DNA of 64,000 nt from contig CANFOQ010000010.1 of NCBI GenBank assembly GCA_947448745.1, forward strand, positions 1-64,000. The letters run 5' to 3'. Below are positions 17,255-21,119 of this stretch, piece after piece. The position numbers were made by a program, and so were the translations under genes. How positions within the stretch are numbered: position 1 is the stretch's first letter; each line of letters starts with the position of its first letter. The notes under the pieces are model-generated. The model ran no database searches, was not told the DNA's origin, and saw only the letters and a program-made list of their open reading frames with translations. Origin of the DNA: Comamonadaceae bacterium. GTDB lineage: Bacteria > Pseudomonadota > Gammaproteobacteria > Burkholderiales > Burkholderiaceae_C.

Positions 17255-20053
17255 TCAGAGGTTGGGTGCGAGCAAACGCTGCAAGTCTTTGTCGGCCACG
17301 CCTTGACGTTGAGCCAAGTCGTGCACTTGGTCGTCACCGATGCGCCCCACATTGAAATACGTGGCTTCGGGGTGCGCCAAGTAAAAACCGCTGACGCTGG
17401 CCGCGGGTGTCATGGCCATGCTCTCGGTGAGTGTCATGCCAATGTCTTGGCATTGCAGCAAATCAAACATCTGTTGCTTCACGCTGTGGTCGGGGCACGC
17501 TGGGTAGCCAGGTGCCGGGCGGATGCCTTGGTAGTGCTCTTTGATCAATTCTTCATTGCTCAAGTTTTCACCAGCGGCATAGCCCCACAGGTCACGCCGC
17601 ACCCGCGCGTGCATGCACTCGGCAAAGGCTTCGGCCAAGCGATCGGCCAAGGCCTTGAGCATGATGGCGCTGTAGTCGTCATGGTCATCGAGAAAGTATT
17701 TTTCTTTGGCGTCCACGCCGACACCCGCGGTGACCGCGAACAAGCCCACGTGGTCTGCGCCTTGGCCGATGGGTGCGACAAAGTCAGAGAGACAACGGTT
17801 CGGGTTGTGCACGCCCTCACGCAAGGGTTTTTCGGTTTGCTGGCGCAAGCCGTACCAAGTGAGTGCTTTATGGGTGCGTGATTCATCGGTCCAGAGCACG
17901 ATGTCGTCACCCACGCTGTTGGCCGGGTACAAACCGACCACCGCATGGGCTTGCAACCAACGGCCTTCAATCAGTCGCTTCAACATGCGCTTGCCATCGC
18001 TGAACACGCGCTGCGCTTCTGTGCCCACCACCTCGTCTTTCAAAATCGCAGGGAATGGCCCCGCCAAGTCCCAGGTTTGAAAGAACGGGGCCCAGTCGAT
18101 GAAGGGCTCTAATTCGGCCAAGTCGAAATTTTTGAAGACGCGTTTGCCGATGAATTTCGGTGCGGTGAGTTGCAGCTTTGGCCAATCGAATTGAGGTGCA
18201 TTGGCACGTGCTTTAGCGAGTGGCAACAGCGGTGTTTGTTTTTTGTTGGCGTGTTGCTCGCGCACCTTGGCGTAGTCGGTATTGAGCTCTTCGATGTAAT
18301 GCGCGGCTTGATCGCTGAGCAAACCTTGCGCCACACCCACACTGCGCGATGCATCGGGCACATAGACCACCGGGCCTTCGTAATGCGGCGCGATTTTCAC
18401 CGCTGTGTGGACGCGGCTGCAGGTGGCGCCACCAATCAACAACGGGATTTTGCGCAAGCGGAAGTGGTCGTCCTTTTGCATTTCAGACGCCACATACTGC
18501 ATCTCTTCCAAGGATGGCGTGATCAGGCCCGACAAGCCAATGATGTCCGCACCCTCCACCTTGGCACGCGCCAGAATTTCATGGCAGGGCACCATCACGC
18601 CCATGTTCACGACATCAAAGTTGTTGCACTGAAGCACAACGGTGACGATGTTTTTACCAATGTCGTGCACATCGCCTTTGACCGTGGCAATGACGATCTT
18701 GCCCTTGGTTTTCACATCTTCACCCGCTGCTTCTTGCAGGCGTTTTTCTTCTTCGATGTAGGGGATCAGGTGGGCCACGGCCTGCTTCATGACCCGGGCG
18801 CTTTTCACCACCTGCGGCAAAAACATCTTGCCCTGACCAAACAAATCGCCCACCACGTTCATGCCATCCATCAACGGGCCTTCGATCACGTGCAAAGGTC
18901 TGCCGCCCTTGGCCAACACCTCTTGGTATGCGGCTTCGGTGTCTTCGTTGATGAAGTCGGTGATGCCATGCACCAGCGCATGGCTGAGTTTGTGCGACAC
19001 GCTGACAGGTGCGTCAGGCGTGCCACGCCAAGCAAGCTTGGCGCTGTCGTCTTTGGCCGCGCCTTTGGCACTTTCGGCTACTTCAATCAAGCGCTCGCCG
19101 GGCGTCAGGTGTTCTTCGCCGTCCTTGTATTGCGGCGTTCTGTTCAAGACCACGTCTTCCACACGCTCGCGCAGCGTGGGCTCGAGGTCGTCGTACACGC
19201 CCACCATGCCCGCGTTGACGATGCCCATGTCCATGCCGGCTTGAATGGCGTGATAAAGGAAAACGGTGTGAATGGCTTCGCGCACCGGGTCGTTGCCACG
19301 GAAACTGAAAGAGACATTGGACACACCACCACTGACCTTGGCACCGGGCAAGTTGTCTTTGATCCAACGCGTGGCATTGATGAAGTCCACCGCGTAGTTG
19401 TCGTGCTCTTCAATGCCGGTGGCGATGGCGAAAATATTGGGGTCGAAGATGATGTCTTCGGGCGGAAAACCCACTTCATCGACCAACACGCGGTAAGCGC
19501 GTTCGCAAATTTCCACCTTGCGTTGGTAAGTGTCGGCTTGGCCTTTTTCATCGAAGGCCATGACCACCGCTGCTGCCCCGTAGCGGCGAATCAGCTTGGC
19601 TTGGCGTTTGAATTCATCCAGGCCTTCTTTCATGCTGATGGAGTTCACAATGCCCTTGCCTTGGATGCAACGCAAGCCCGCTTCAATCACGCTCCACTTG
19701 GAGCTGTCGATCATGATTGGTACACGTGCGATGTCGGGCTCAGACGCAATCAAATTCAAGAAACGCACCATGGCCGCTTGACTGTCCAGCATGGCCTCGT
19801 CCATGTTGATGTCGATGATTTGCGCACCGTTTTCCACTTGTTGACGCGCCACAGCCAATGCTTGCTCGTACTCGCCGTTCAAGATCATGCGGGCAAAGGC
19901 TTTGGAGCCGGTGACGTTGGTGCGCTCGCCGATGTTGACGAAGGTGGCTTGCACCGGCGTGCTGTCGTCGTCGGCGCGAGCCGTGGTGCCAATGCGCACA
20001 GGCTCCAAGCCTGACAGCTTCATGGGGGGAACGGCAATGTGTGGGGTATTCAT
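17255..20053 (-). CDS. metH: Cobalamin-dependent methionine synthase, lacking the homocysteine domain
   Basis: 932 aa, matching E. coli MetH from about residue 340 to the end. Order: pterin-binding domain beginning [16 protein letters not shown], helical cap, B12 domain with [11 protein letters not shown] (its His ligates cobalt), SGLITPS and IGGAT, then the AdoMet reactivation domain ([13 protein letters not shown]). The N-terminal homocysteine/zinc barrel is absent and must be made by a separate gene, as known in many Burkholderiales; no such gene is in this window. ATG at 20053 follows AGGTGAG; an SAH riboswitch controls this ribosome-binding site. Confidence 0.95.
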
Positions 20054-20056
20054 GGA

Positions 20057-20142
20057 CTCACCTGAGGGATGCAAAACAGGTGAGCGTCGTTGCGAGAAAA
20101 GACCCAAGCCTGGCTTCGTGTGAAGCTGCAACGCTCCTTGGG
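20057..20142 (-). promoter_or_regulatory. SAH riboswitch with ribosome-binding-site expression platform
   Basis: On the minus strand the leader contains the conserved SAH-riboswitch blocks GGAGCGTTGCAGC (from 20137), the hairpin GCTTC-ACAC-GAAGC, the pseudoknot partner CCAGGCTTGGG that can pair with the upstream CCCAAGG, and CGCAACGACGCTCACC. GAGCG pairs with CGCTC to close P1. Downstream, CTCACCTG (20084-20077) is perfectly complementary to CAGGTGAG (20064-20057), which contains the metH Shine-Dalgarno. SAH binding would hold CTCAC in the aptamer and free the ribosome-binding site, switching metH on. Confidence 0.88.
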
Positions 20143-20153
20143 ATGATCAGATT

Positions 20154-21119
20154 TTAGCGGGAAGCGAATTCTTCACTGCTGGGCGGCTGACACCCCACTC
20201 TTTCGCAGTTGATGGCCGCAGCTTTCAAGGCGCGTTGCAAGGTGCTGTCCAGTCTTTCGGCTGCCACATCATCATGGCCCACGGTGTCGTGCAACACCCA
20301 ATCTGCCAAACAACTGCCCCAGAAGGTGTCGCCTGCGCCAACGGTGTCCACCACCTGAACCGTTGGTGCTGCGGCTTTGGCGTGTGCTGAATGCGTCTTT
20401 GTAGATGCGCTTGAAACATCCGATGCCATGTGCAATGACGCGCCTTGCGCACCAAACGTAAGTGCCACGCGCTGGCAACCCAGCGCAAGCCATTGGGCTG
20501 CCAAGGCGTCGGTGTTGTCCCAATGCACATCGGTCCAACCCAACAACTGCATGTCTTCATCGCTGGCCTTGAGCCAATCGGCCATGCGAGCCATCTGCAT
20601 CACGGCCTGCAAATACGCGGGCAAGTCATAAGCCACACGGGTGCGCAGATTCACATCGATGCTGATGGTCCAGCCCATTGCTTTCGCAAACTGGATGACA
20701 TGCATGACCTTGTGGTGTTCGGGTGGCATGGCCATGAGGGAACCGGTGTGCAGCACACCGGGTGGGTGCTGCTTCAAGAGGCGCACGATGTCGTCGGCGT
20801 TGTAGTCGCGGTCGGCCACGCCATCGCGGTAAAAACCATAGCTGGGTTGACCGTCTAGGATGTTCACCACCGCCAAGGACGTGGGCTTGGGTGACGTGGG
20901 GCTCAAGGCTTTGGCCCCACTCTCGTTCAATTTGGCGGCGAGTTGTTGACCAAACACATCGGTGGAAAAAGGGCTCAAGTAACCCACGTCTGCGCCTTGC
21001 AAGGCCACGGCACACGCCAGGTTGAATGGGCTGCCGCCCAACAGGGGCTGCAAACTGCCATCGGCGCGCGCCACGCAATCCATCAGGGCTTCGCCCAGCA
21101 CCCACACAGCGGCTGTCAT
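20154..21119 (-). CDS. PfkB-family sugar kinase (fructokinase-like)
   Basis: 321-residue ribokinase-fold kinase. N-terminal sugar-binding GEALMDCVA and GGSPFNLACAVA, and the C-terminal PfkB signature DTVGAGDTFWGS with the catalytic Asp. Sequence resembles fructokinases (ScrK/FrcK type), and the gene overlaps by 4 bp the permease gene of a fructose/ribose-type ABC transporter, which supports phosphorylation of the imported free sugar. Exact sugar not proven. Last gene of the minus-strand binding protein - permease - kinase operon. Confidence 0.87.
   Translation of the reverse strand: MTAAVWVLGEALMDCVARADGSLQPLLGGSPFNLACAVALQGADVGYLSPFSTDVFGQQLAAKLNESGAKALSPTSPKPTSLAVVNILDGQPSYGFYRDGVADRDYNADDIVRLLKQHPPGVLHTGSLMAMPPEHHKVMHVIQFAKAMGWTISIDVNLRTRVAYDLPAYLQAVMQMARMADWLKASDEDMQLLGWTDVHWDNTDALAAQWLALGCQRVALTFGAQGASLHMASDVSSASTKTHSAHAKAAAPTVQVVDTVGAGDTFWGSCLADWVLHDTVGHDDVAAERLDSTLQRALKAAAINCERVGCQPPSSEEFASR

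Follow-up and report, generated by a model that had tools for sequence, protein, structure and literature searches.

The leader of metH in a Comamonadaceae bacterium (contig CANFOQ010000010.1) is probably an SAH riboswitch operating as a translational ON switch, a reading to which a probability of about 0.85 is attached. SAH riboswitches follow a known ON logic, and the direction proposed here rests on that logic together with the anatomy of the leader; an ON switch had been proposed in the initial annotation and is retained as the best reading. The element lies on the minus strand of a 64-kb window, the whole stretch of DNA that was analysed. The interval first noted, 20057-20142, holds the aptamer core and the platform, and the aptamer match extends to 20145.

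The SAH aptamer and its target gene

A search with the Rfam SAH riboswitch model (RF01057) had been set beforehand as a check and was significant. The cmscan match at 20145-20075 (minus strand) scored 52 bits against a gathering score of 37, with an E value of 1e-6 over positions 1-78 of the 78-position model, and was the sole match above any gathering score in the window. It is placed directly 5' of metH, the start of which is at 20053. All of the SAH-aptamer blocks that the initial annotation had named in this leader were located on the minus strand. In the Rfam alignment the 5' strand of P1, CCCAA (20138-20142), is partnered by TTGGG (20107-20103), and P2 is a GCTTC/GAAGC hairpin at 20113-20126. 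The Rfam structure line for the match contains P1 and P2 only, without a pseudoknot; GAGCG (20132-20136) and CGCTC (20086-20082) are the strands which we take to form the pseudoknot helix, GAGCG/CGCUC, following the assignment in published SAH riboswitch work. The last three bases of the latter strand, CTC, are common to the platform helix.

Conservation was assessed within the genus, where 34 of 37 genomes searched contained SAH matches. By motif, the 57 stretches recovered comprised 24 metH leaders, 23 ahcY leaders, eight unlabelled stretches and two in which the core was absent, and all 24 metH leaders were aligned. P1 was paired in 98.3% of cells with two pairs changed on both sides, and the four pairs counted for P2 were paired in 100% of cells with three changed on both sides. 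GAGCG/CGCUC was invariant in 24 of 24 leaders and so carries no covariation information, and the UUGC/GCAA pseudoknot strands were paired in 91.7% of cells with no pair changed on both sides. On these sequence data the element may be assigned to the SAH riboswitches and would be expected to bind SAH. Wang, Breaker and colleagues reportedly characterised the class first, in 2008. In its aptamer blocks, P1 and P2 helices, candidate pseudoknot strands, methyl-cycle target and expected ON logic the metH leader agrees with RF01057, and no difference in the aptamer was seen; the detail examined here is the direct Shine-Dalgarno hairpin sharing CUC.

The metH gene (17255-20053, minus strand) encodes the part of methionine synthase that serves pterin binding, B12 binding and activation, with a product of 932 amino acids from the ATG at 20053 (the ORF list starts it at an upstream TTG). 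Pfam domains Pterin_bind, B12-binding_2, B12-binding and Met_synt_B12 were identified in the product, which gave no match to the part that binds homocysteine. The single match to that part (PF02574) in the host genome is on a third contig, which carries neither of the two SAH matches of the host. These are the metH match and a 58.8-bit match on another contig, which precedes an AdoHcyase (ahcY) gene (L198, by Pfam). Of the methyl-cycle genes ahcY, metF and metH, it is metH, identified by Pfam, that lies downstream of RF01057 in the window. Control of metH by SAH riboswitches had been described in the initial annotation as known in Burkholderiales, and for Comamonadaceae this is borne out in the passages available from a published SAH regulon, in which MetH is a taxon-specific SAH-riboswitch target (PMC4239095). 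The metH target is common to both studies; those passages concern the regulon and the present analysis the expression platform.

Upstream of the aptamer, the stop codon of a pfkB-type kinase (TAA, 20156-20154, minus strand) opens the sequence TAAAAT, a -10-like box at 20151-20156 that ends 5 nt ahead of the aptamer match. A promoter scan of the leader region did not find a full sigma-70 site.

A conserved hairpin over the Shine-Dalgarno sequence

The platform consists of CTCACCTG (20077-20084, minus strand), the 5' or anti-Shine-Dalgarno strand, a 12-nt loop TTTTGCATCCCT (20065-20076) that varies among relatives, and CAGGTGAG (20057-20064), which contains the Shine-Dalgarno sequence and forms the 3' strand. 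Paired as CUCACCUG (20084-20077) and CAGGUGAG (20064-20057), the two strands give a perfect 8-bp hairpin enclosing the Shine-Dalgarno sequence. TCC and then the ATG (20053-20051) follow directly after CAGGTGAG, placing the Shine-Dalgarno sequence 3 nt from the start codon. The exact 8-bp complementarity claimed between the aptamer 3' strand and the Shine-Dalgarno stretch therefore held, and an alternative helix common to the aptamer and the ribosome-binding site is present. The further claim that CTCAC is locked in P1 did not: P1 is CCCAA/TTGGG, and only CTC is common, as part of the pseudoknot GAGCG/CGCUC. As the aptamer and the platform share CUC only, three of the eight platform pairs compete directly.

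An exact complement of CTCACCTG within the next 40 nt occurred in 37 of 20,000 dinucleotide shuffles, and conservation in relatives is stronger evidence for the platform helix than this count. RNAalifold, applied unprompted to the 24 genus metH leaders, predicted exactly the 8-bp platform hairpin. The helix was paired in 191 of 192 cells (99.5%), compared with 23-42% when the partner was slid by 1-3 columns, and the single unpaired cell is a C-A at pair seven in L152. Two pairs were changed on both sides, with a covariation score reached by two of 500 shuffles. Compensatory changes among relatives, a check also set beforehand, were found both in this alignment and in the wider leaders; the double change at pair seven separates L180 (CUCACCUG/CAGGUGAG) from L185 (CUCACCAG/CUGGUGAG) within the same genus. 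The helix reuses the aptamer CUC in 24 of 24 leaders.

It is very unlikely that the two strands match merely through a good Shine-Dalgarno sequence, AGGUGA, and an aptamer tail resembling the 16S anti-Shine-Dalgarno, with a hairpin that has no regulatory role. Pairing with 16S could by itself conserve AGGUGA, and five of the eight platform pairs never vary among the 24 genus leaders. AGGUGA can pair with the 16S 3' end and the following G cannot, yet this last G is kept: in 20 of 20 SAH leaders AGGTGA is followed by G, as against seven of 21 other AGGTGA-before-ATG sites (Fisher p 4.4e-6; counted in the window and 80 named loci, with a crude pattern used to identify the SAH leaders). The compensatory changes also argue against a match of this kind, as does the presence of the six-pair match in 40 of 128 leaders filed away from the start codon, of which at least L070 is misfiled. 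The sequence analysis shows the aptamer match, the platform helix and the maintenance of that helix by selection.

At the scale of the family, an SAH match was present in 392 of 397 genomes. The metH start was located in 137 of 140 family genomes; contig ends truncated two of the 137, so that 135 upstream stretches were available. The core pattern identified an SAH aptamer within 350 nt upstream of metH in 108 of these; Rfam recovered four of the 27 pattern misses (L235, L238, L269 and L287), giving 112 of 135, and a fifth Rfam match, in L215, lay about 1.1 kb upstream of metH. When 100 of the 108 pattern-found leaders were scanned with Rfam, 97 were at the gathering score and L264, L316 and L332 fell below it. 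The 108 family leaders and 34 leaders from the 80 named loci, the latter identified by pattern alone, made up a set of 142; CUC together with three more bases has a complete six-pair partner in 128 of these, and 14 have no full six-pair anchor.

Pairs seven and eight were not used in choosing the partner. In shuffle tests, which here as elsewhere in this analysis ignore relatedness, pair seven was Watson-Crick in 98 of the 128 leaders (shuffle mean 54.4; 0/2000 as high) and pair eight in 69 (mean 57.5; 6/2000); with duplicates removed the counts were 68 of 91 (0/2000) for pair seven and a weaker 48 of 91 (29/2000) for pair eight. Further out, past the helix, pairs nine and ten did not exceed shuffling in the 128 leaders. 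After division into direct and other types, a split that rests on the chosen start codon, pairs seven and eight were formed in 74 and 65 of 88 direct-type leaders (means 64.0 and 53.3; 0/2000 each). Among the 40 other-type leaders pair seven was formed in 24 (mean 15.1; 1/2000) and pair eight in four, below shuffling (mean 9.5; 1995/2000). Since pair eight is above shuffling in direct leaders and below it in the others, it belongs to the direct type only. In 38 of the 40 other-type leaders the partner is followed by a candidate start at a distance of about 25-90 nt. As to the filing itself, L070 stands as other though GGTGAG is just before its ATG, L102 is unclear, and L259 and L311, filed as direct, may be other.

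Own strands averaged 18.73, compared with 16.85-17.27 for strands swapped between leaders (20 swaps). The score of a leader's own strands was reached by at most 5% of shuffles in 113 of the 142 leaders and by more than 5% in the remaining 29; in L084 and L087 the helix is almost absent. For nine leaders with a changed core, shuffle scores of the partner were computed with 500 shuffles each. Three of these are confirmed by Rfam and retain a partner rarely matched by shuffles: L262 with CUCACUC/GAGUGAG (7/500), L286 with UCAUCGAU/AUCGAUGA over the start codon (0/500) and L312 with UCGUCA/UGACGA (9/500). L332, in which CGCAAC/GUUGCG is seemingly a fully rewritten helix (7/500), was not counted, being below the Rfam gathering score, nor were L328, in which CUCACU/AGUGAG was reached by 35/500 shuffles, and L274, in which the score fell on a helix other than the one read by eye. 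The helices of L246 (39/500), L318 (160/500) and L281 (178/500) were unsupported. L281 was misread by the core pattern, and this doubtful row was kept in the sets of 142 and 128. It has two candidate 3' CGCTC strands, an Rfam match at 10-103 (44.1 bits) and a second CAACGACGCTCACCTG...CAGGTGAG just ahead of metH, perhaps through a long insertion within the leader.

Predicted mode of switching

Without SAH, CUCACCUG would pair with CAGGUGAG and bury the Shine-Dalgarno sequence 3 nt from the AUG. With SAH bound, CUC would be held in the aptamer pseudoknot GAGCG/CGCUC, leaving a platform hairpin of at most 5 bp. In the metH leader the free 8-bp hairpin folds at -11.2 kcal/mol, and the 5-bp remnant left when CUC is taken at -4.9 kcal/mol, which may be weak enough to be opened by the ribosome. 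Methionine synthase would then be made and homocysteine drawn to methionine. Hairpins weaker than about -6 kcal/mol are said, after de Smit and van Duin, to hardly block initiation, and under this threshold SAH binding would carry the leader across the line. Across 87 direct-type leaders (L281 was left out) the median was -11.3 kcal/mol for the full hairpin and -5.0 kcal/mol with CUC blocked, with a median difference of 6.3 kcal/mol. The full hairpin was at -6 kcal/mol or stronger in all 87, and with CUC blocked 55 were weaker than -6 kcal/mol and 32 remained at that value or stronger.

Release of the Shine-Dalgarno sequence by SAH is nevertheless not obvious from thermodynamics alone. In a constrained fold with the pseudoknot strands blocked, AGGU was still paired in the 5-bp remnant, with an unpaired probability of 0.01-0.08. 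The remnant may persist with SAH bound. Given this pairing and the 32 relatives at or beyond -6 kcal/mol, release would need competition by the ribosome or steric effects of the pseudoknot. The same two observations would suit a hairpin acting as an attenuator of a general kind or as an RNA thermometer, with the remnant keeping the Shine-Dalgarno sequence shut and the aptamer mattering little. This is considered unlikely: the reuse of CUC in every genus leader would be needless for an independent hairpin, and the median gap between full and blocked hairpins also speaks against it.

An action mainly on transcription, through termination or Rho and not on ribosome access, appears highly improbable. 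It draws on L015, from another Burkholderiales family, in which an SAH aptamer runs into a terminator-like hairpin; in the metH leader the helix directly covers the Shine-Dalgarno sequence, and no terminator-like site was found in 19990-20320, a weak negative since shuffles average only 0.5. The translational ON switch may also be set beside riboswitches of the SAM-II/V, SAM-III, SAM-SAH and some preQ1 types, in which, in the passages available, the aptamer fold itself blocks the 30S subunit (PMC10907184). In both arrangements the riboswitch fold controls ribosome access, whereas in the metH leader ligand binding is expected to free the site from a hairpin that is separate from the aptamer fold.

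Other platforms and SAH sites in related genomes

In the family, the SAH switching strand CUCACC is possibly, though with less than even probability, wired to interchangeable outputs: capture of the Shine-Dalgarno sequence, capture of the start codon (L286, L336, L345) and a relay. In genus g53, UCAUCGAU with AUCGAUGA captures the start codon and not the Shine-Dalgarno sequence in all three metH leaders read (L286, L336 and L345). In relay-like metH leaders (L097, L100, L272, L290, L334 and similar), a hairpin of the GGCCGCG/CGCGGCC type has GGUGAG at its loop, and GGCCGC recurs just ahead of the ATG. In the proposed relay, a G+C-rich hairpin ahead of the start codon would carry GGUGAG within its loop or next to it, and the 3' arm of this hairpin may in turn free or mask the ribosome site. 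For 34 distinct leaders, from 36 picked out of the 40 other-type, the relay hairpin arms scored 20.35 against 17.45 when swapped (0/200 swaps as high), and the 3' arm matched the ribosome site weakly better than swapped arms (13.46 against 12.78; 6/200). If true, such a relay would amount to a multi-step ON platform of an undescribed kind.

Read by eye, the ahcY-type leaders of the genus (L144, L149, L198 and others) have a more complex platform, in which CUCACC/GGUGAG is again present and precedes another complementary pair, CCACUGAC/GUCAGUGG, and a hairpin formed by GAGGUG/CACCUC.

Tandem SAH matches above the cut-off, 29-62 nt apart, were observed in L015 (G046:C93:83683-83462, minus strand), L373, L374, L375 and L376. 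Among 98 genomes from a single Burkholderiales family they occur in five, namely the four genus g11 genomes in the search and G510. The gene that follows encodes AdoHcyase, as judged by Pfam for L015 and L374 and by eye for the remaining three. By eye, the first aptamer in all five leads into a hairpin reusing its CGCTC and then a T-rich tail, and the second aptamer adjoins the start codon. The terminator-like hairpin of L015, the only one of the five that was folded, gave -44 kcal/mol (z -6.1). A 2022 review, in the passages available, places SAH among the riboswitch classes not found in tandem (PMC9481103).

The homocysteine half (PF02574) of G321 has its own SAH match of 48.2 bits, and the CUCACCAU/AUGGUGAG hairpin in its leader (L355) repeats the platform design, with changes at two more pairs. 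Among the 80 named loci, 39 in which no SAH leader was found had room to show a homocysteine half within 400 nt upstream of metH on the same strand, and 35 of them had it there; where an SAH leader was found, the count was three of 31. This pattern tracks phylogeny and need not be causal. An Rfam scan of 12 named loci without a found SAH leader gave no matches. A further SAH match (G427:C15:38214-38133, 48.2 bits) has an unexpected target: it lies just ahead of a chemoreceptor gene (L377:445-2121, minus strand), whose 558-amino acid product is a methyl-accepting chemotaxis protein (MCPsignal, 4HB_MCP_1). Downstream of it, the next SAH match is ahead of an AdoHcyase gene (L337).

A literature search, to which the original SAH riboswitch papers were out of reach, found no account of the metH platform in the passages it covered, and no claim is made that it is unpublished. 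The metH leader is a well-supported example of a known switch type, a solid but expected result. It takes the gene-level prediction that SAH controls metH in Comamonadaceae to a mechanism at base-pair level that can be tested and has evolutionary support, and the natural series of platforms on one aptamer (direct, start-codon, relay and tandem) would be useful for the study of how riboswitch outputs evolve.
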